54,247 nucleotides of DNA from an uncultured Lachnospiraceae bacterium (GTDB lineage: Bacteria; Bacillota; Clostridia; Lachnospirales; Lachnospiraceae). A model generated the notes under the pieces. It ran no database searches and had not been told where the DNA came from. It worked only from the letters and a program-made list of their open reading frames with translations. The DNA lies in NCBI GenBank assembly GCA_947623805.1, contig CANQHZ010000011.1, forward strand, positions 1 through 54,247, written 5' to 3'. Made by a program: the position numbers and the translations under genes. Shown piece after piece: positions 6,402 to 21,010 of this stretch (its first letter is position 1; each line of letters opens with the position of its first letter).

Positions 6402-7604
6402 TCACCTCTCCCATATCACCTGAAAGATATAAAACTTCAAATAATACGACTCGTCCGCACTCCATAGTATCGGGTGGTCGGCAGACTGTGTCCTGTACTC
6501 CACCTGGCGCAAGCGGCAGTGGACGTTCTTTGCCGCCTGCGCTATCGTCTGCGTAAAGAGCTCGTAATCCATGAAATGCGAGCATGAGCAGGTCGCGAGA
6601 AATCCGCCGTCCTTTACAAGCTTCATGCCGCGCAGGTTTATCTCGCGGTAGCCCTTTACCGCATTTTTTACGGAATTGCGTGACTTGGCAAACGCGGGCG
6701 GGTCGAGAATTACCACGTCGAAACGCTCTCCCGCTGCCTCAAGCTTGGGCAGAAGTTCAAACACATCATCGCAGACAAACTCAACTGTCTTTTCAAGTCC
6801 GTTCAGCCTTGCATTTTCACGTGCCTGATTTATCGCAAGCTCAGACGCATCGACTCCAAGCACGCTCTTTGCGCCCGCTATGCCCGCATTAAGCGCAAAC
6901 GAGCCTGTATGTGTGAAACAGTCAAGCACTCTTGCATTCCTGCACAAGCGCTGTATGGCAAGTCTGTTATACTTCTGGTCGAGGAAAAAACCGGTCTTTT
7001 GACCGTCCCTTACGTCCACTATATATCTTACGCCATTTTCCGTGATTTCAACGTTTGTGTCAAACTCATCTCCGATAAAACCCTTAAAGCGCTCCATTCC
7101 CTCCTGCAGCCTGACTTTTGCGTCACTTCTCTCATATACGCCGCGAATATTTGTTCCATCCTCGGCGAGCACGCGCTTTAATATTTCAATTATCTCGTTT
7201 TTCATCCTGTCGATACCAAGGGCGAGCGACTCAACCACCAAAATATCGCTGAACTTGTCTACCACAAGCCCCGGCAGGAAATCCGCCTCTCCAAAAATAA
7301 CACGGCAGCTTGATGTGTCAACCGTCTTTTGGCGGTATTCCCAAGCTGCCCTTATGCGCCTTTCCAGAAAAGCCGCGTCGATATGCTGCTCTTTATCACG
7401 CGTCATCATGCGTATACGGATTTTTGAATTTTCATTGATAAAGCCCCTGCCAAGCATATATCCGTCAAAATCATGAACGGCGACAATATCGCCGTTTTCA
7501 AATGCACCATCTACGTTTTCAATCTCATTGTCATAAATCCAGAGCCCGCCCGCTTTGAGGCTTCTGCCCTCTCCCTTTTTTATTGTCGCTACCGCCTCTG
7601 TCAT
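6402..7604 (-). CDS. Class I rRNA large-subunit methyltransferase, RlmI/YwbD family
   Basis: The 400-aa protein begins with a PUA RNA-binding domain (about 1-75), has a central linker with the family's DGQKTGFFLDQ segment, and a C-terminal Rossmann SAM-methyltransferase: VLDCFTHTGSFAL (motif I), GVDASELAI, and the LDPPAFAKS catalytic loop. Family members methylate C5 of cytosine in 23S rRNA. It lies downstream of the HD-domain gene (65 bp) on the same strand. Assignment to the family is firm; the exact nucleotide is not known. Confidence 0.85.
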   Translation of the reverse strand: MTEAVATIKKGEGRSLKAGGLWIYDNEIENVDGAFENGDIVAVHDFDGYMLGRGFINENSKIRIRMMTRDKEQHIDAAFLERRIRAAWEYRQKTVDTSSCRVIFGEADFLPGLVVDKFSDILVVESLALGIDRMKNEIIEILKRVLAEDGTNIRGVYERSDAKVRLQEGMERFKGFIGDEFDTNVEITENGVRYIVDVRDGQKTGFFLDQKYNRLAIQRLCRNARVLDCFTHTGSFALNAGIAGAKSVLGVDASELAINQARENARLNGLEKTVEFVCDDVFELLPKLEAAGERFDVVILDPPAFAKSRNSVKNAVKGYREINLRGMKLVKDGGFLATCSCSHFMDYELFTQTIAQAAKNVHCRLRQVEYRTQSADHPILWSADESYYLKFYIFQVIWER

Positions 7605-7668: not shown

Positions 7669-8427
7669 TTATCCAAACAGTTCATCTATATAGCTAAGAT
7701 ACGTTTTCATAACCTTTGTGTCGGCAAATTCCTCCAGTGCCTCGGCGCACTTTCTGAAATACCATTCCTGCATCTGCTTGTCTGTCTGATTAAATTTTTC
7801 CCAGAGCCTATCGCCCACAAGCCTGTACTCTCTCACGAGCGACTCGGCATTTGCCGTCTTGTCCGCAAGGGCGATAATCTTTACATCGCGCGGCATATCC
7901 TTTAAGTGCTCTATCGTTTCCTGCTTGCGTATCTCCCAGGTCTCGCTCGCTGGCATATCGCGGCGCTTGTCCTCTGTCTCCGCCTCCACCAGAAACGCCA
8001 CACGTTTTCCGAACTCATGGCGTATATCCTCAATGGTCACGGGCGTGTCCTCCACTGTGTCATGAAGTATCGCCGCTATAAGCACGGTCAGATTGTCGGT
8101 GAGCTCCATGCAGTAATTCATAGTAGTGATTATATGGCTGAAGTACGGGACTTTTGTCCCCTTTCTCACCTGTCCCTCGTGTGCCCTCGCAGCATAGGCA
8201 TAGGCCTCGTATAGACTCTCGTCAAGCCTTGAAACGTGCGGAAAAAGCGGGGGATTTTCCTCCTCCTCGTATTGACATACAACTTTTGCGCCCTCTGCTT
8301 CTACAAAGCATGGGCAGCCTTTTCCGCATACCTGTTGGTCTTCAATGTAACTAAGCCTGCTTTCCACTGCTCTGCAGTAGAAATATCCTTCGCTGTCAAC
8401 AATAACTGTGTGCTCTCTATTCGCCAT
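7669..8427 (-). CDS. HD-domain hydrolase, RelA/SpoT-like (MESH1-type)
   Basis: The 252-aa protein carries an HD metal-binding domain in the order seen in (p)ppGpp hydrolases: residues AHEGQVRKG, FSHI, AAILHDTVEDT (HD...ED) and LADKTAN. No synthetase, TGS or ACT domain follows, so this is a small alarmone-hydrolase type. The first 70 residues hold several cysteines (QVCGKGCPC) that might bind a metal; this part is not known to me. It sits 10 bp behind the SH3-protein gene. Hydrolysis of (p)ppGpp or another nucleotide is inferred from the fold only. Confidence 0.7.
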   Translation of the reverse strand: MANREHTVIVDSEGYFYCRAVESRLSYIEDQQVCGKGCPCFVEAEGAKVVCQYEEEENPPLFPHVSRLDESLYEAYAYAARAHEGQVRKGTKVPYFSHIITTMNYCMELTDNLTVLIAAILHDTVEDTPVTIEDIRHEFGKRVAFLVEAETEDKRRDMPASETWEIRKQETIEHLKDMPRDVKIIALADKTANAESLVREYRLVGDRLWEKFNQTDKQMQEWYFRKCAEALEEFADTKVMKTYLSYIDELFG

Positions 8428-8437
8428 TAAGCCTCCG

Positions 8438-9334
8438 TTAATCTTTCTTGGTAAAATCGATTATCCAACCTTTAGCTTCACCGCCGTCCGATTCTTTGTA
8501 TGTGCCATATTCCATCTTGCACGTAAACGATACTCCCTGCTCAGCTTTCATATCGTCAATGACATCTTCCATAAAATCCCTCATTTTGTCTTCGTCATTC
8601 CCGATAGACGCGTTTCTGTACACGCTGCTAAAGCTTTCTATGTCATAACGTATCGAGCGATTGAGAGCAAGCTTTAAATCTTTTTCACTCCTAAAAGGTC
8701 CCGCCATGCTGTCGCTGAAATATTTGTTTCTGTAGTCAATAAGGTATGCCTGCATAGTCTTGGCAGCCACTGCGGCATCAGTCTTTGATTCTCTCGTATA
8801 CACTGATTTGAGTGTTTCACCCGTGTCCTTGAGTATACAGTTGTCTATTGTGGCATAGCCCATCAAAAATGAATCCATGTATTTTATGTATGTGTTTTCA
8901 TCCATGTCATCGACATCATCTTCATCAAAGTCGCTAAGCTGCGGATTTTTGAAAAAGGAAAATGTGCCCTTTGTAAGTTTCTTCAAATCACTCGTGCTTA
9001 TGACAACTCCGCCTGTGGTAGCTCCCTCCACAAGTCCGTATCCCGGAATATAATATGTCCCCTCAAGATTTATCCTAAACCAGCCGTTTGACGTAATTCC
9101 CGTTACCTCTACAGGAAGTCCGCCATCTATTGTAGTCATCACCTGCGAGTTTATATCAGGCTCCTTATATACCTTTGTTTTGCCGTTGGTGTAGAGCACT
9201 GCCTTTTTTTCATCAACCGTAAACTCTACGGCCTCTACGACATTCGCTTTTGTCTGCACGCTGACAGCTACACTTGATACCGCAAATATCGTTATCGCTG
9301 CCGACGCAAACACTTTCAGCCATAATTTTTTCAT
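8438..9334 (-). CDS. Exported protein with SH3-like domain
   Basis: The 298-aa protein starts with an N-terminal signal segment (MKKLWLKVFASAAITIFAVSS). Residues about 45-105 look like a bacterial SH3 domain (KVYKEPDINSQVMTTI, NGWFRINLEGTYYIPG), often a cell-wall binder. The remaining 190 residues, with an acidic FDEDDVDDMDE stretch, are not recognised. Start follows GGAGG. It lies 61 bp downstream of the M13 peptidase and 10 bp before the HD gene, so the three may form one transcript. Likely extracytoplasmic and wall-associated. Confidence 0.65.
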   Translation of the reverse strand: MKKLWLKVFASAAITIFAVSSVAVSVQTKANVVEAVEFTVDEKKAVLYTNGKTKVYKEPDINSQVMTTIDGGLPVEVTGITSNGWFRINLEGTYYIPGYGLVEGATTGGVVISTSDLKKLTKGTFSFFKNPQLSDFDEDDVDDMDENTYIKYMDSFLMGYATIDNCILKDTGETLKSVYTRESKTDAAVAAKTMQAYLIDYRNKYFSDSMAGPFRSEKDLKLALNRSIRYDIESFSSVYRNASIGNDEDKMRDFMEDVIDDMKAEQGVSFTCKMEYGTYKESDGGEAKGWIIDFTKKD

Positions 9335-9395
9335 ATTTAACCTCCGTTCTGCCTTAATGCGGCCATATCACAAAAAGCACTGCCGATTGAGGCGT

Positions 9396-14761: not shown

Positions 14762-15256
14762 TTACAGCACTTTGTCCGTCTTTCCTGCCGTCAAAATTCT
14801 GAGTGTCCCGTTGCCCGGCTCGAATGTTACAGTGCGCGGGTGATACCCTCCAAGCTCAGCAGCAAGCACGGGAATATTCATTAGCGCAAGTTTTTTCCTG
14901 ACTGCTTTGGCATTTCTTGAGGATATATCGCTGCTCTCGCTGTCGCTCCTTACCATGTGAGCACCGCCTGCGAGCTTTGCCACAAGCCTTTCGCGTTTCG
15001 CGCCTTTCATCACAAGTTCCTTTATAAGTGTTTCTATGCCTGTATCGGCATATTTAGCGGGATTTTGTTCAGTTCCGGGAGCAATGTTCGTATATTGCGG
15101 GAGCATGATATGCAGCAGCCCGCCTATGCCTGTCTGCGAATCGTACATCGCGATTGCCACGCAAGAACCCAAATCTCTTGTTATCAGCTTTTGTGAGCCT
15201 CTTGCGAGCTTGTAGTCACCCATGTTGACGGTTATCATGCTCTGCAGCTCATCCAA
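14762..15256 (-). CDS. cheD: CheD, chemoreceptor glutamine deamidase
   Basis: CheD features are clear: GDYKLA near the N-terminus, the catalytic Cys in RDLGSCVAIAMYD, His in GGLLHIMLP and Thr/Ser-rich GGAHM...RNAKAVRKKL. It deamidates chemoreceptor glutamines and binds CheC in Gram-positives. I chose the TTG start at 15256 (AGGTGG, 8-base gap); the ATG at 15238 (MITVNMGDYK) is the usual family start and equally possible. The frame runs up to 15355, but a -10-like TAGAAT lies inside that part. Its place beside flagellin fits a motility region. Confidence 0.8.
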   Translation of the reverse strand: MDELQSMITVNMGDYKLARGSQKLITRDLGSCVAIAMYDSQTGIGGLLHIMLPQYTNIAPGTEQNPAKYADTGIETLIKELVMKGAKRERLVAKLAGGAHMVRSDSESSDISSRNAKAVRKKLALMNIPVLAAELGGYHPRTVTFEPGNGTLRILTAGKTDKVL

Positions 15257-15413
15257 TGTAAATGCCACCTGTCCGTCCTCCGAAAACGTGTTTATTTCTG
15301 TAAGCAAATATATTCTATCACATAAACTGCAAGTATTCCAGCTGTATTTACGCAAAAATGCCGCTTGTTTTTTGGTTTTTGGCTTTGTTTTTTTATACTA
15401 AATAATAAAATAT

Positions 15414-15449
15414 AAAAGAAACCGACGCGAATACGCCGGTTTCTTTTAT
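15414..15449 (-). terminator. Flagellin terminator
   Basis: AAAAGAAACCG-CG pairs with CG-CGGTTTCTTTT. A near copy lies behind the flagellin fragment at 20108-20143, so the duplication included the terminator. Confidence 0.75.
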
Positions 15450-15483
15450 TAGGGGTGTGTCTGTTATTTTATTTAGATAATTA

Positions 15484-17637
15484 TTAGCCAAGTAATGAGA
15501 GTACGCCCTGGTTAGACTGGTTAGCCTGTGCGAGCATTGACTGACCTGCCTGTGCGAGGATATTGGCGTTAGAGTACTGTACCATCTCTGTAGCCATATC
15601 TGTGTCGCGGATACGTGACTCGGCCGCTGTGGTGTTCTCTACTACGTTGTCGAGGTTCTTGATTGTGTGGTCAAGTCTGTTCTGTACTGCACCAAGAGCT
15701 GAACGCTGTGAAGATACCTTCGCAACTGCGTCTGCGATTGCGTCGATTGCGTATGTTGCCGCTGCACCTGTCGCATCCTTTACATTAAGGTTCTTGATAC
15801 CAAGACCCGCTGTGCTCATTGACTCGATATTAACCATAATCTTATTTGTCATATCAGCGTCTGCGCCTACGTGGAGGCTAAAGTTCAAAGCATCTGTGTA
15901 GGTTACTGAGCCTTGCTTAATATTGAAGTTACCATCGCCCAAGTGCTCTACCTCTGCCGCCTTGTCTGTGCCGATTGAGCTTGCCTTTTCAAGCTCCTCC
16001 GTCATCATATCATAAGCTTCTGCCTTGGTAATATTCTTCTTATTGCCGTCCAATGCCGTATATACGTTTTCAGCCTGCTTAAGCATATCTGCGGTAAGCA
16101 TCTTGTCAAGTCTTCCATCAGCGATTGTCGAACTTGTAACAACACTGTTTACACCGTTATTCGTCGCTTCGTCTTTCAGACCTGCTTTATTCGTCTTGCT
16201 GTATGTCCTTACGGTATCGCCATCCTTAATTCTGGCAAGAATCTGGTCTACAGTAAGCTTCTGATAACCGTCTACAGTCTTTTCAATCGGAGCTTCGCCC
16301 TGACCTGTCGCTATCTGGTATACATTGGGCTTCCCTGTAAGAGTATCTTCTCCCACTACAACCCATGCGCCCTCGCCAAGCTTTTCAAGAGCGGATTTCA
16401 AATCGTCAAATGTAGAAGGTGAACCTGCCACTATCTGCTGCTCTTTGCCACCCAGTACAATCTTATCGCCTACTTCCGCTTGTGAGTAATACTGCCCTAT
16501 CGCATATTCTTTCAATTTCTCCTGGTTAGCGGTCTTGGTTGCGAATATATTTACCTCGCCTTCTTCGAGCTCCTCAATCTTCATGCCAATTATATTGTTA
16601 AACTCTCCGGCAGCGCCGTTATCAATTGCGGCATTGTGTATATCAACGATTGTCGTGCCAGCTTTCAACAGGCTAGTCAGCTCATTCTCTACGTCAGCCT
16701 GAGCGATTATTCCCTTTTCCAAATCGGTCTTAACACCGGCAGCCGCACTGATTGTATATGTCGATATCGTGCCGTCCGCGCTCTTTATGGTTATAGAATC
16801 ATTGTTAGCCCATGAAGTGAGTGCGTTTGTACCTAAATGTTTAACCACATCCTCCGCGGTAAGCTTCTCTACAAATGTCGTCTTCTCACCGTTGCTGTTT
16901 GTTATGCTGTCGCCGTCTTTAAGCTTAAGAGCCGCTCTTGACCCTTCAGTGCTGGCCATAGTAGTAGTAGTAATCTCACCGTCATATATATTACCGGCAG
17001 ACGCCTGCCCCCAGCCTGTTACTGTAGATATAGAAACATAATCCAGCTTATCTTTTGACTCGCCAATCTCGTACTCCTGTCCGCCAATCTTGACGCTATC
17101 GCCAGTCTTGAGCGCATTCTCAAGTTTGAAAGAATATGTGCCGTCGCCGTTGTCAACAAGCTTTCCGTCAAGACCTGCGTCATGAGCCGCTACAAGATTC
17201 TCAGACTTTGTTCCGTCTGCGTTGCCCTTTAACAGATAAATCTCGTTGAACTTTGTCGTCTCTGCTACACGGTCAATCTCTGTCGTGAGCTGGCTTATCT
17301 CATCCTGGATTGCCTGACGGTCTGACTCTGAGTTTGTGCCGTTTGCCGCCTGTACTGCAAGCTCATTCATTCTCTGCAGCATATCGTGAACTTCCGTCAG
17401 CGCACCTTCTGCTGTCTGCACTGCCGATACGCCATCCTCAGCGTTCGTAGATGCCTGTGTAAGTCCTCTTATCTGCTTTCTCATCTTCTCTGAAATTGTC
17501 AAGCCTGCCGCGTTGTCTGCTGCACGATTGATTTTGTAGCCTGATGAAAGTTTTTCCGTAGAGCCTGAAAGTGTGCCCTGTGTAATGCCTAACAGTCTGT
17601 TAGAGTTGATTGCCTGTAAATTGTGCTGTACTACCAT
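15484..17637 (-). CDS. hag: Flagellin (large, expanded central domain)
   Basis: The 717-aa protein has a typical N-terminal D0/D1 (NLQAINSNRLLG, LSSGYKINRAADNAAGL) and C-terminal D1/D0 (DTDMATEMVQYSNANILAQAG...VLSLLG). The middle, about residues 140-600, is unrelated to short flagellins of 270-500 residues and forms a large, likely surface-exposed domain. It is exported through the flagellar system, so has no signal peptide. Start follows CAAGGAGG. csrA lies 208 bp upstream on the same strand. No sigma-28 promoter is seen between the two genes, so expression may depend on a promoter upstream of csrA (see the invertible segment). Confidence 0.95.
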   Translation of the reverse strand: MVVQHNLQAINSNRLLGITQGTLSGSTEKLSSGYKINRAADNAAGLTISEKMRKQIRGLTQASTNAEDGVSAVQTAEGALTEVHDMLQRMNELAVQAANGTNSESDRQAIQDEISQLTTEIDRVAETTKFNEIYLLKGNADGTKSENLVAAHDAGLDGKLVDNGDGTYSFKLENALKTGDSVKIGGQEYEIGESKDKLDYVSISTVTGWGQASAGNIYDGEITTTTMASTEGSRAALKLKDGDSITNSNGEKTTFVEKLTAEDVVKHLGTNALTSWANNDSITIKSADGTISTYTISAAAGVKTDLEKGIIAQADVENELTSLLKAGTTIVDIHNAAIDNGAAGEFNNIIGMKIEELEEGEVNIFATKTANQEKLKEYAIGQYYSQAEVGDKIVLGGKEQQIVAGSPSTFDDLKSALEKLGEGAWVVVGEDTLTGKPNVYQIATGQGEAPIEKTVDGYQKLTVDQILARIKDGDTVRTYSKTNKAGLKDEATNNGVNSVVTSSTIADGRLDKMLTADMLKQAENVYTALDGNKKNITKAEAYDMMTEELEKASSIGTDKAAEVEHLGDGNFNIKQGSVTYTDALNFSLHVGADADMTNKIMVNIESMSTAGLGIKNLNVKDATGAAATYAIDAIADAVAKVSSQRSALGAVQNRLDHTIKNLDNVVENTTAAESRIRDTDMATEMVQYSNANILAQAGQSMLAQANQSNQGVLSLLG

Positions 17638-17767
17638 AAAATACCTCCTTGTCTGCCTCGGCGCGTCATATCACAATCGCTGCGCCTTAGCCATGCCGCG
17701 GAAATTTCCGTTTCCCGCCGTTTGTTTTGGGTTACATTGTTTTCAATATTCAGTTGTATATAATAAT
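17638..17767 (-). promoter_or_regulatory. Flagellin 5' leader with possible CsrA sites
   Basis: The leader contains CGGAAATTTCCG, a GGCGC...GCGCC hairpin and the GGA of the ribosome site CAAGGAGG. CsrA binds GGA motifs in loops and represses hag in Bacillus; the same is inferred here because csrA is the upstream neighbour. Confidence 0.35.
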
Positions 17768-17817
17768 CCGCATACAGCCTGCTTTTTGGCGCGCCTGCTT
17801 TGACAGGCTGTATCCGG
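17768..17817 (-). terminator. csrA-hag intergenic hairpin
   Basis: Arms 17768-17781 and 17804-17817 pair over 14 bp with one mismatch (core ATACAGCCTG / CAGGCTGTAT). On the minus strand AT-rich ATTATTATA follows rather than a T-run, so it may be a leaky terminator or processing point adjusting the csrA:hag ratio. Confidence 0.4.
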
Positions 17818-17845
17818 CTATTATCAGTTAAACATCAGCTTTTAT

Positions 17846-18091
17846 TTATTTTTCATTCTGTGCGCACGATGCTGCTTTCGCCTGCTCCTGCGCCTCCTCG
17901 CGCTCTTTGTTCAGCGCCGCATTTCTGCGCTTTACCGCGCGTTTCTGTATTGCCCTGCCTCTTGCGATGTTCACCTCTTTAGGCGCGTCTATCATCAGTT
18001 TGAGTTGATTTTTGTTGCCGCCTAAAAAAGTAATCTTGATATCCTTGCCTATCATCAGGTATTCTTCCCTTGGCACTGTAAGCATCAGCAT
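17846..18091 (-). CDS. csrA: CsrA translational regulator
   Basis: This is an 81-aa CsrA: the start MLMLTVPREEYLMIG, the KITFLGGNKNQLKL strands and IDAPKEVNIARGRAI match the family core, including the GxxKLMIxAPxxVxIxR face that binds RNA. A basic, Ala/Glu-rich tail of about 25 residues extends it beyond the usual 60-75. Start ATG 18091 has GGAGG at 7 bases; the frame continues upstream through the recombination site, but without a ribosome site. It lies directly upstream of flagellin and 56 bp from the left inverted site, so its promoter would be swapped by inversion. Confidence 0.9.
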   Translation of the reverse strand: MLMLTVPREEYLMIGKDIKITFLGGNKNQLKLMIDAPKEVNIARGRAIQKRAVKRRNAALNKEREEAQEQAKAASCAQNEK

Positions 18092-18147
18092 ATAAAAACC
18101 TCCTTGTTTTCCTATAAACGCCAATTCCGCCAGCTTTGGCTGCCTGC

Positions 18148-18175
18148 GCAACAATCTGGACAGAATGTTGCATTT
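18148..18175. repeat. Left inverted recombination site (28 bp)
   Basis: The site starts GCAACAATC and ends GTTGCATTT. It matches the reverse complement of 19038-19065 at all 28 positions. Within each site GCAACA...TGTTGC form near-palindromic arms around TCTGGACAGA, the form expected of a tyrosine-recombinase core. Confidence 0.85.
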
Positions 18176-18202
18176 GATATCTGCTGCAGAACGAATTAAT
18201 AT
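18174..18202 (+). promoter_or_regulatory. Promoter of recombinase gene
   Basis: TTGATA (18174-18179), 17 bp, TAATAT (18197-18202). It begins at the inner edge of the left site, so it travels with the segment and the recombinase stays expressed in both orientations. Confidence 0.6.
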
Positions 18203-18252
18203 TAAGGGAAAGGAAATCTAACGAAAGGAAACGTTTAGAGAGGGGTAAAGCT

Positions 18253-18843
18253 ATGAGTACAATGTCGCCTATCAAGGACAAAAGAGAGCTGGAAGCTATG
18301 AAAAAATATTTTCTGTGGAAAAAGGAGATAAGAAATTATGCGCTGTTTTGCGTAGGAATCAATACCGCCCTGCGCATAAGCGATCTTTTGAAGCTGCGCT
18401 GGAAAGATGTGTATGATTTTAAAAGTCATTCATTTAAAAGGCATTTGCAGATAAGGGAGCAAAAAACGAAAAAGAGGAACGAGATACTTTTAAATAAGGA
18501 AGCCGTGAAAGCCTTAAAGAAACTGTTTGCACACTTTAACCGAGACAATGCGCCGATAAGTGAAAACAGCTTTATATTTGTCGGAAGGAAAAATACAGGT
18601 AGGCCGCTGAGCCGCTCTCAGGCGTACCGCATCATAAACGACGCCGCCAGAGTATTGAAAATAGCCGGAAATATCGGCTGCCATTCGCTCAGAAAAACTT
18701 TTGGCTATTTCGCGGCGCGCAGGGGTATTTCCGCCGTGCTGATTATGAATATTTACAACCATTCATCATTTCCAATCACAAGGCGCTATCTGGGCATAGA
18801 GCAGGACGAGCGCGATGAAGTGTTTATGCGGATAGCGCTTTAG
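18253..18843 (+). CDS. Tyrosine recombinase (single catalytic domain)
   Basis: The 196-aa protein is essentially only the catalytic domain of the phage-integrase/XerCD class: Arg in NTALRISDLLKLRW, Lys in the KTKKRNEILL hairpin, His-x-x-Arg in GCHSLRKTFGY, His in YNHSSF and the nucleophile Tyr in ITRRYLGI. All catalytic residues are present. It lacks the N-terminal core-binding domain of Xer proteins, like the short FimB/FimE invertases. Start ATG 18253 follows GAGGGG. It lies between inverted sites and probably inverts them. Confidence 0.85.
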   Translation: MSTMSPIKDKRELEAMKKYFLWKKEIRNYALFCVGINTALRISDLLKLRWKDVYDFKSHSFKRHLQIREQKTKKRNEILLNKEAVKALKKLFAHFNRDNAPISENSFIFVGRKNTGRPLSRSQAYRIINDAARVLKIAGNIGCHSLRKTFGYFAARRGISAVLIMNIYNHSSFPITRRYLGIEQDERDEVFMRIAL

Positions 18844-18905
18844 CAAAAGCAGCTGGAAAAACTGATTGTTTATTTAATATCGTTTTTTAATTTTGAGTGT
18901 CTTAT

Positions 18906-18925
18906 GGCATAACTATGCCCTTTTT
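18906..18925 (+). terminator. Terminator after recombinase
   Basis: GGCAT AACT ATGCC followed by CTTTTT. It separates recombinase transcription from the sigma-28 promoter downstream. Confidence 0.65.
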
Positions 18926-18980
18926 CAGTTATTCTCAAGTCATTTTTACAAAATCATCGAAATTTTTTTCAGTCAAGGGG

Positions 18981-19007
18981 TAAAGTATTTTGAACAATAA
19001 CCGATAT
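18981..19007 (+). promoter_or_regulatory. Sigma-28 (SigD/FliA) flagellar promoter
   Basis: TAAA (18981-18984), 16 bp, CCGATAT (19001-19007), matching the flagellar consensus TAAA-N15-GCCGATAt at all but one -10 position. It points right, out of the segment through the right site, and toward the nuclease gene at 19248. After inversion it would read leftward into csrA-hag. Confidence 0.75.
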
Positions 19008-19037
19008 ATAGAGTGTAAGAACAAAAACAGCGTCAAA

Positions 19038-19065
19038 AAATGCAACATTCTGTCCAGATTGTTGC
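19038..19065. repeat. Right inverted recombination site (28 bp)
   Basis: Reverse complement of 18148-18175 without a mismatch; starts AAATGCAAC and ends GATTGTTGC. It lies about 25 bases downstream of the expected start point of the sigma-28 promoter. Confidence 0.85.
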
Positions 19066-19247
19066 ATTTTTATATTTTACCACTTTTAGGAATATATACA
19101 TATAATTTTATGAATAAGCTTCTTACGATTGTTTTTATGCTATCATATTATACATTAAAAAATGAAAATTCTATGGAGATTTCACGAAAAATCAGTTTTC
19201 AATAGAAGGCGTTCGATGTATAATAAGATGGAAAGCAGGTGATATCT

Positions 19248-20057
19248 TTGAAAACGGCAGAGCAGATACATCAACAGGACTTGGAGCGTCTGCGGTCCCT
19301 ACGATATATGGACGATGATTTTTTTACGGTCTGTCTTGAAGATAATTTTGAAGCTGTGGAGCTGATACTTAGAATTGTGTTGGGAAAAGAGGTAAGAATT
19401 AAATCAATCCGCACGCAGGAAGTATTGAAAAACCTTCATGGGCGTTCAGCAATATTGGATGTACATGTAATTGACGCTGATGATAAAGAGGCGGACATAG
19501 AAATTCAGCGTTCAGATGCGGGCGCGGGCGCAAAAAGGGCAAGGCATAACAGCAGCTTACTTGACGCACATATCTTAAAGCCTGGGGAAAATACAGAAGA
19601 TATTCCTGACAGTTATGTCATTTTTATTACAGAAAATGATGTGATGAAGGGCGGCAAGCCAATTTATTTGGTAGAGAGATATGTTTCAATCGGTGATGAA
19701 AAGGTATTGTTTGGCGATGGTTCACATATAATATATGTTAATGGAAAATATCGCGGCGATGATGAAATCGGCAGGCTGATGCATGATTTTTCATGTACCA
19801 ATCCCGATGATATGAATTATGACGTGCTTGCCAAAAAGGCGAGGTATTTCAAACAGGACGAGGAAGGAGTGAAGTCAATGTGCAAGATGTTGGAGGATAT
19901 GAGGAATGAAGCAGCACAGAAAGCAGAGTTGGACAAGGCGCGACAAATAGCTGTTTGTATGATTAAAGACGGAGAGCTGCCAATTGAAAAAATTGCGCTG
20001 TATTCTGGCTTGTCACTCGATGAAGTCAGGGAGTTAGCAGAGCCGATTATGGCATAG
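19248..20057 (+). CDS. Rpn-family PD-(D/E)XK nuclease
   Basis: The protein (269 aa from TTG 19248) resembles the 'Rpn/transposase-like nuclease' group common in Firmicutes: N-terminal YMDDDFFTVCLEDN, the nuclease core LDVHVIDADDKEADIEIQR (Asp...Glu-x-Gln), and a C-terminal helical tail ending DEVRELAEPIMA. Such proteins stimulate recombination or act as defence-like nucleases. TTG is chosen over GTG 19239 because AGGTGA then has proper spacing. In the current orientation it lies downstream of the sigma-28 promoter, about 235 bp away. Confidence 0.75.
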   Translation: MKTAEQIHQQDLERLRSLRYMDDDFFTVCLEDNFEAVELILRIVLGKEVRIKSIRTQEVLKNLHGRSAILDVHVIDADDKEADIEIQRSDAGAGAKRARHNSSLLDAHILKPGENTEDIPDSYVIFITENDVMKGGKPIYLVERYVSIGDEKVLFGDGSHIIYVNGKYRGDDEIGRLMHDFSCTNPDDMNYDVLAKKARYFKQDEEGVKSMCKMLEDMRNEAAQKAELDKARQIAVCMIKDGELPIEKIALYSGLSLDEVRELAEPIMA

Positions 20058-20107
20058 TGTAAAAATATTGTGCAATTTTTGTTTTTCAGCAGGAATAATG
20101 TAAACAT

Positions 20108-20143
20108 AAAAAGGACCGACGCGAAACCGCGCCGGTCCTTTTT
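20108..20143 (-). terminator. Terminator of flagellin fragment
   Basis: AAAAAGGACCG-CGCG pairs with CGCG-CGGTCCTTTTT. It resembles the hag terminator at 15414-15449 in form and position. Confidence 0.75.
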
Positions 20144-20180
20144 GTTAGGGATTGTGTTATTTATTTCATTCTGAGAATAA

Positions 20181-20372
20181 TTAGCCAAGTAATGAGAGTA
20201 CGCCCTGGTTAGACTGGTTAGCCTGTGCGAGCATTGACTGACCTGCCTGTGAAAGGATATTGTTGTTAGAGTATCTAACCATCTCATCAGCCATATCTGT
20301 ATCACGGATTGCTGACTCTGCGCTCTGCGTATTCTCAACAACATTGTCGAGGTTCTTGATTGTATGCTCCAA
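20181..20372 (-). pseudogene. Flagellin 3' fragment
   Basis: Reads [14 protein letters not shown], then [22 protein letters not shown] and the VLSLLG end: the last 64 residues of a flagellin. The text before it is unrelated (poly-T, then AT-rich), so the copy has lost its N-terminus. The nucleotide sequence is very close to the end of hag but not identical ([11 protein letters not shown] against ATEMVQYSNAN), so it may come from a second flagellin gene rather than hag itself. It cannot make a filament subunit by itself. Confidence 0.85.
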
Positions 20373-20400
20373 TGCATTTTTATATTATACCCATATTATG

Positions 20401-20433
20401 AGAAAAACCACTCTATCATTATAAGGTGGTTCT
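20401..20433 (-). terminator. Terminator of toxin-antitoxin operon
   Basis: On the minus strand ACCAC and GTGGT pair, followed by TTTT. It lies just behind the RelE-like stop codon. Confidence 0.5.
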
Positions 20434-20451
20434 CAAATAAATGATATTCAC

Positions 20452-20706
20452 TTAATAGCGTTTATACACATCTCCTCTATTGTCTATATTTTCTATTGAA
20501 ATAATTTTAACCATTTCATCAATAGTATATAATATTCTATAGTCTCCTACACGCAAGCGAAATAAATTACAGCCTTTCAGCCTTTTTATGTCAGTACCAT
20601 CCGGCAGCTTATAGATTGCCGCATATAATCGCAATCGCTGCGCCTTGTCCTGTTTATCGAGGAACTTCTGTGCCGCTTTTTCAAATTTTATCTTGTAAGT
20701 CTGCAT
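20452..20706 (-). CDS. RelE/ParE-family toxin
   Basis: The 84-aa protein has the RelE pattern: YKIKFEKAAQKFLDKQDK, IKRLKG, and the central LFRLRVGDYRILYTID motif with Arg residues that in RelE act on ribosome-bound mRNA; the C-terminal tail DNRGDVYKRY is also typical. It overlaps the antitoxin gene by 26 bp, the usual translational coupling. It would be a ribosome-dependent mRNA endonuclease held in check by its partner. Confidence 0.85.
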   Translation of the reverse strand: MQTYKIKFEKAAQKFLDKQDKAQRLRLYAAIYKLPDGTDIKRLKGCNLFRLRVGDYRILYTIDEMVKIISIENIDNRGDVYKRY

Positions 20707-20920
20707 ATGTCAAACCATCCCTTTTTAACAACTCGTCAAATGAAATTGTATCACCATTATTTTCTGCCTCTGCCTCTTTCATCATCTCTATGTCCCATTC
20801 ATCCGGCTCGACTTCTTCAATGAGTAAATTTCTGATGCTGTTCAACATATCCACAACAAATAACATTTTATTTTCCGGTATCTGATTTAATAATTGTACC
20901 GCTCTTTCTCTATCACTCAT
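20681..20920 (-). CDS. Antitoxin of RelE-like toxin
   Basis: The 79-aa acidic protein is directly upstream of and overlapping the toxin gene. Its N-terminal helices (SDRERAVQLLNQIPENK) and acidic C-terminal part with SFDELLKRDGLTYADLQ are of the kind that wraps the toxin. I use ATG 20920 because AAGGTGG lies 6 bases before it; a GTG one codon earlier is less likely. No DNA-binding motif is obvious. It belongs to a type II system by context. Confidence 0.75.
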   Translation of the reverse strand: MSDRERAVQLLNQIPENKMLFVVDMLNSIRNLLIEEVEPDEWDIEMMKEAEAENNGDTISFDELLKRDGLTYADLQDKI

Positions 20921-21010
20921 CACTTACCACCTTCCTACTTTCTCATCAGCCACTTTTCTACTTGAAATCAGTATAACATTTTTTAACATAGTATACCATA
21001 TTTATTCTGC

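Follow-up and report, generated by a model that had tools for sequence, protein, structure and literature searches.

Does a recombinase gene that lies between inverted repeats, next to a csrA-flagellin gene pair, form part of a switch for that flagellin, and is such a switch still in use? The question is raised by one locus in the 54,247-nucleotide stretch of contig from an uncultured Lachnospiraceae bacterium that was analysed here (the window), and which the initial annotation had read as an invertible switch with a flagellar promoter. The reading was supported and is amended in three points: the unit belongs to a set that is present in several copies, its csrA is a switch-linked paralogue, and its sites look like one-sided terminators.

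Layout of the segment and its sites

The 918-bp segment (18148-19065) is bounded by inverted repeats at 18148-18175 (left site, csrA side) and 19038-19065 (right, distal site), which are complementary at 28 of 28 positions; when 17800-19500 was shuffled 300 times with dinucleotides preserved, exact inverted repeats spaced by >200 bp reached a length of at most 14. Near-palindromy within a single site reached 94% (19036-19052 against 19055-19071), and the 6-bp cores are located at 18157-18162 and 19051-19056. Two identical inverted 28-bp sites with near-palindromic arms, as first described for this locus, were thus recovered.

A complete gene for a tyrosine recombinase of 196 aa (18253-18843, plus strand; PF00589, E=2e-24) is enclosed by the sites. 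It is preceded by a promoter-like sequence, TTGATA-17-TAATAT (18174-18202, plus strand; consensus scan only), which overlaps the end of the left site, and by a hairpin with AAGGA in its loop (18220-18235, plus strand), a possible CsrA-type site upstream of the recombinase start. The gene is followed by a terminator-like element (18906-18925, plus strand), i.e. a hairpin at 18906-18919 with a T-rich tail, and a resembling hairpin was also found in some relatives. At the outer end, a sigma-28-like promoter, TAAA-N16-CCGATAT (18981-19007, plus strand), points away from csrA-hag, an orientation called OFF. Recombinase gene, both promoters and terminator had all been annotated initially, and each was confirmed in its place.

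The two genes of the proposed target pair are on the minus strand to the left of the segment, first the csrA-like gene (17846-18091; PF02599, E=1.4e-17) and second the flagellin gene hag (15484-17637; 717 aa, PF00669 and PF00700). The left site was again found 56 bp from the ATG of the csrA-like gene, and all coordinates hold. Inversion in silico placed the end of the -10 element 114 nt before this ATG; if transcription started about 7 nt past the -10, as is assumed here, the ON leader would be about 107 nt long, in line with the original prediction that the flipped promoter would drive csrA-hag with a leader of about 110 nt.

The sigma-28-like promoter is the sole match to TAAA-N15/16-CCGATA in the window. 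Because 0.3 such matches were expected per shuffled window (40 shuffles), the match by itself is suggestive only and was rejected as stand-alone evidence. CCGATA near the outward-facing segment end was, however, present in all of the 37 related units described below, the promoter having been placed by eye in four of them. The sequence TGTAA after the -10 was rejected as a switch-specific signal, for it occurred in 34 of the 37 units but also in the three fixed flagellin promoters that were checked. Between hag and the segment, neither a sigma-70-like site (consensus scan) nor a sigma-28 site facing csrA-hag was found, and the closest sigma-70-like match with that orientation was within the recombinase gene (18362-18335). 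An Rfam search of 15000-21000 returned 0 matches.

Related units, their recombinases and target genes

Membership of the protein in the tyrosine recombinases is indicated by the PF00589 match and by R41, H144, R147, H170 and Y179, which we take to be its catalytic residues and which were invariant among 23 aligned sequences. No serine recombinase domain of the Hin type was detected, PF00589 being the only domain at E≤0.001. Against the two NCBIfam models scored, presumably those of FimB and FimE, the protein reached 53.7 and 49.8 bits with cut-offs of 221 and 222, and therefore falls outside that subfamily; its identity was 34% to FimB over 144 aa and 29% to FimE over 173 aa.

Searched against 38 genus genomes, the recombinase had a match in 37, at E<1e-40 in only 19 and more distant in the others. 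Close copies numbered 4 in the window genome (G000), 7 in G033, 6 in G034 and 3 in G035, and the other three of G000 were 70-81% identical. Most close relatives share the layout of repeats, recombinase, sigma-28-like promoter and adjoining csrA-hag; among the exceptions are the recombinase loci G028:C181 and G001:C23, at which neither repeats nor promoter were found. A combined promoter-plus-site pattern was met at 40 places in 19 of the 38 genus genomes, with 0 in the backwards control. Among the scored units are 28 of these places. Three more (L190, L196, L197) lie outside the 37 units and are OFF, and six were left unscored because of contig ends or broken recombinases (two in G004, and G017:C47, G019:C16, G019:C96 and G037:C25). 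The places G033:C22 and G032:C1 are without a csrA neighbour, and the one in G029 has neither recombinase nor flagellin on its contig stretch.

Only the window genome matched in a sample of 397 genomes of the family (strict pattern) and in a sample of 392 genomes of the order (relaxed pattern, as in the genus), so in these samples this form of the pattern seldom occurs outside the genus, and it was rejected as a wider marker. When the recombinase alignment was scanned against named genomes, at least 79 loci were retained, mostly of Lachnospiraceae or other Bacillota, those listed including Lachnospiraceae bacterium COE1, Butyribacter intestini and Anaerocolumna sedimenticola; looser forms of the module were present beside csrA-hag in some other species among these genomes.

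In total, 104 recombinase entries were collected, of which 58 adjoin csrA or flagellin and 46 neither, some of the latter at contig ends. Such numbers, together with the multiple copies per genome, would suit a small mobile element that was inserted by chance beside flagellin genes and has no role in their expression. We consider this highly improbable, given the sigma-28-like promoter, the csrA-like partner, the position upstream of csrA-hag and the one-sided U-tract of the sites (see below). Flagellin linkage is, moreover, clustered on the recombinase tree: with FimB and FimE included, the flagellin label required 10 changes, versus 34 when shuffled.

Related recombinases were also seen in other settings. 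In L137 (6001-9396), a recombinase segment carries a sigma-28-like promoter at 6619 (plus strand), which faces the gene of a 718-aa choline-binding/polysaccharide deacetylase protein rather than a flagellin. L068 (4811-6715), L069 and L070 have related recombinases and sites with different arms (TTCAACA..TGTTGAA); in L068 one such recombinase adjoins a NusG-like gene, perhaps as a specialised antiterminator switch.

The gene pair had been read as csrA followed by flagellin. The order and the CsrA domain (PF02599) hold, but the window copy is not canonical: it scored below the NCBIfam CsrA equivalog cut-offs (46.8 against 73 and 40.5 against 70.1 bits), and it is not in a fliW neighbourhood. 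The fliW-linked CsrA of the window genome is on contig C3, with another flagellin. G000, G033, G034 and G035 have a single fliW each, adjoined by one flagellin gene and one canonical csrA. At this flagellin a sigma-28-like promoter was located in three of the genomes (G000, G033, G034); none was found in G035. Non-canonical CsrA copies (4, 6, 7 and 3 in G000, G033, G034 and G035) stand beside switches, with the exception of G034:C5, in which such a copy adjoins a site at the contig start. In a comparison of 14 switch and 4 canonical sequences, switch CsrA had VP (LP once) and not RR at positions 6-7, and a basic C-terminal tail. Judged from these features, the switch-linked csrA genes are divergent paralogues that form a distinct group.

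Switch-linked flagellins within one genome were similar at both ends (N-terminal 84-98%, C-terminal 80-98%) and diverse in the centre (11-79%), in a comparison that covered 4 flagellins from G000, 6 from G033 and 5 from G034, with two of G034 left out. One unit of G035 leads into three consecutive flagellins, and more divergent flagellin-like genes without a switch are also present.

Beyond the segment, the window contains an Rpn/PD-(D/E)XK-like gene (19239-20057, plus strand; below curated cut-offs), a flagellin C-terminal remnant (20181-20372, minus strand), and a gene for a ParE-like toxin that overlaps a weak match to DUF6290 (20452-20923, minus strand), together a possible toxin-antitoxin pair. 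In G033, the neighbourhood of the remnant and the Rpn-like gene holds three consecutive switch-flagellin units, which indicates that units were lost or gained here. A decayed unit was seen at L058/L200 (G032:C1), where recombinase and promoter remain and adjoin only the C-terminus of a flagellin.

A CsrA protein may also act on the recombinase. Hairpins with GGA in the loop were found in 20 of the 37 recombinase leaders (shuffle mean 4.3, maximum 10), seven of them overlapping the ribosome-binding site. Covariation was scored in 12 selected rows anchored on AAGGA, which stand for 20 of the 37 units; the other 17 were excluded, most being without a clear hairpin of this kind. Changes on both sides occurred at all six pairs, and the covariation score was reached by 0 of 500 shuffles. 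The number of pair types was unremarkable, being equalled or exceeded in 317 of 500 shuffles, and the outermost pair was mostly unpaired. The leader sequences suggest that CsrA may control the recombinase via this hairpin.

Core identity, orientation and site hairpins

Sites were searched by their arms alone, with at most 4 of 16 arm mismatches and the centre left free. Of 102 recombinase loci, 37 qualified as units, and in the remaining loci the sites had diverged or were not detected; two of the 104 entries were unscorable. The 6-bp core was identical between left and right site in all 37 units (222 of 222 positions; mean 128 and maximum 149 when re-paired). Left and right sites never differed in the core, often did so in the outer halves and seldom in the inner ones; such a distribution would be expected if strands are exchanged within the core. 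The 37 segments are all distinct yet related, and thus do not count as 37 independent events.

Most units of one genome differ in their cores (all 6 scored in G033 and all 3 in G000), which should insulate such units from each other. This bears on the alternative that sites are used in trans, with one recombinase serving several units and exchange between units shuffling flagellin loci. Arms nearly identical in close units, and one core (TAGATA) common to two of the 6 scored units of G034, are compatible with such traffic; the differing cores in most units of a genome and the presence of a recombinase in every scored unit make it rather doubtful, and inversion of each unit by its own recombinase remains the preferred reading.

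Both orientations were encountered in the family. In L042 (G033:C14) the promoter faces csrA-hag (ON), and in its syntenic orthologue L044 (G034:C10), with the same repeat letters, it faces away. When the two were aligned, the segment (8390-9374) matched on the minus strand and the flanks on the plus strand, with breaks at the repeats; the direct alignment comprised the csrA-hag side and 22 bp past the other site. The paralogue G033:C8 and the unit G000:C20 behaved against L042 as L044 did. Inverted repeats flanking a promoter beside a gene, and both orientations with breakpoints at the repeats, are what defines an inverton; the former were found here, the promoter being recognised by sequence only, and the latter for the family, between orthologues of different genomes.

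Overall, two units were ON (L042, L115) and 35 OFF. The pattern gave 31 OFF and both ON calls; L125, L129, L130 and L026, in which the -35 is weaker, were called OFF by reading the segment ends. An automatic ON call for L130 was discarded, as the pattern lay inside its site. None of the four units of the window genome is ON. A check set beforehand, for the flipped form in relatives, found it for the family and not for the window unit itself, whose nearest orthologues (G033:C9:131059 and G034:C19:23288) are both OFF.

Some units touch contig ends or are incomplete. In L048 (G000:C20, 9540-9671) the distal, right site is missing and unrelated sequence is found there, so that this unit may be locked OFF; the last part of its contig is an inverted repeat with GGGCTGTCGCAC, which resembles an insertion-sequence end. 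The contigs of L144 (G034:C5, 1-30), L193 and L195 start at a recombination site or just inside the segment; such starts would be expected if inverted repeats or mixed orientations interrupt an assembly.

The preponderance of OFF units, 35 of 37, also fits a once-active switch that is now locked OFF in this strain, with its csrA paralogue and hag silent or read from elsewhere. Decay is evident at the flagellin remnant of the window, at the G032 recombinase beside a flagellin C-terminus, and at G000:C20 with its lost right site. Still, the window sites match at 28 of 28 positions, the recombinase ORF is intact with its conserved residues present, and the left-right identity of the cores in all 37 units argues that the family has stayed in use; we therefore regard a locked state as unlikely and retain a working switch as the reading.

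The sites have a further property. Once transcribed, the outgoing site folds into a hairpin, and the U-tract is longer on the side away from csrA in all 37 units, with a mean of 7.1 T of 10 compared with 1.8 on the csrA side. The site hairpin on the side away from csrA was stronger in 33 units, equal in 2 and weaker in 2, and T content on that side peaked in the first 10 nt (72 and 69%), then fell to 28-42%. In five units, including the ON unit L042, csrA is at the 3' end of the recombinase gene and the U-tract is still on the side away from csrA, and hence tracks the target and not the recombinase. In the window, the terminator-like hairpin and U-tract on the silent exit span 19036-19078 (plus strand). 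These sequences suggest that an OFF transcript would end at the distal site and that, in the ON state, transcription would read through. For the cwpV switch of Clostridioides difficile, whose promoter is outside the segment, a repeat-associated intrinsic terminator is proposed (as described in PMC2784873).

Proposed switch and its relation to known systems

Taken together, it is very probable that the locus is a self-contained DNA-inversion switch and that each of several units controls its own flagellin gene or genes. The segment-encoded tyrosine recombinase would bind both near-palindromic sites, and strand exchange in the 6-bp core would invert the 918-bp segment, presumably also within a strain. 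As assembled (OFF), the sigma-28 promoter, if active, would read outward and its transcript would stop at the distal hairpin and U-tract. When inverted (ON), it would read through the csrA-side site, without a U-tract, into the csrA paralogue and hag. Every unit would act on its own flagellin gene or genes, with a presumed effect on the filament, and at least one flagellin, the one beside fliW, would stand outside the switch system.

A tentative extension is an expandable counterpart of Hin-fljBA based on another class of recombinase, possible though less than likely. Here the CsrA paralogue of the ON unit, as the FljA analogue, would repress the mRNAs of other or fixed flagellins, and CsrA would also restrain the recombinase via the AAGGA hairpin, so that cells would tend to make one flagellin at a time and to keep the state once chosen, with the site acting as a one-way terminator.

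Lachnospiraceae flagellins are known immune targets, and the set of cassettes looks like a built-in means to change the flagellar coat. If the reading is correct, a group of gut commensals of the Lachnospiraceae has flagellin repertoires in which many members possess their own recombinase-plus-promoter cassette, and a second evolutionary route to a Salmonella-type flagellar switch exists. It could also explain seemingly silent flagellin genes and contigs ending at such sites, and orientation PCR would offer a direct test of antigenic variation in commensal flagella. The recombinases, whose cores differ, are in addition a possible orthogonal set of invertases. New in this work are the hairpin structure of the sites, with the longer U-tract at the silent exit, and the switch csrA as a divergent paralogue. 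Some of the loci are possibly already listed among predicted invertons (Jiang et al. 2019). A full-text literature search, with subscription papers and preprints outside its scope, returned no description of such flagellin units, and the main text of a paper on Roseburia and Eubacterium flagellins that analysed promoters has 0 mentions of recombinase, integrase or phase variation (PMC3720852).

The unit is similar to the RecV switches of C. difficile in its tyrosine recombinase, inverted repeats and clostridial flagellar context, and in the repeat-associated terminator proposed for cwpV. The flg and cwpV segments, of 154 and 195 bp, are reported to contain neither promoter nor recombinase, RecV acting from elsewhere (PMC5386303, PMC7446863, PMC2784873). 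The window unit departs from that type, as both promoter and recombinase lie inside its segment. The flg switch is described as affecting the early flgB operon, with control after transcription initiation and no choice of flagellin (PMC5386303, PMC7446863), unlike the flagellin choice proposed here. Mpi of Bacteroides fragilis is described as one recombinase for at least 13 capsule promoter switches with a shared site consensus (PMC5386303, PMC7241687), and thus resembles the present set in its many promoter switches for alternative surface structures and common site consensus. In contrast to Mpi, each unit here has its own recombinase, and most cores differ within a genome.

The genes of FimB and FimE in Escherichia coli lie outside the inverted element and the target is fimbrial, unlike in the present unit. 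Common to both are a small tyrosine recombinase (FimB and FimE have 200 and 198 aa) and a promoter within the inverted element (PMC7446863).

By analogy, the logic is closest to Hin-fljBA. In Salmonella, the invertase gene and the promoter of the flagellin operon are inside the inverted segment, Hin is a serine recombinase, and the fljBA operon joins an alternative flagellin gene with a gene for a post-transcriptional regulator. The unit described here agrees in having invertase gene and flagellin-operon promoter within the segment, a regulator gene in the operon, and a similar size, the Hin segment being 966 bp (PMC5903667). It differs in that its recombinase is of the tyrosine type, the regulator is a CsrA paralogue whose gene comes first, and the genome contains several units instead of one.
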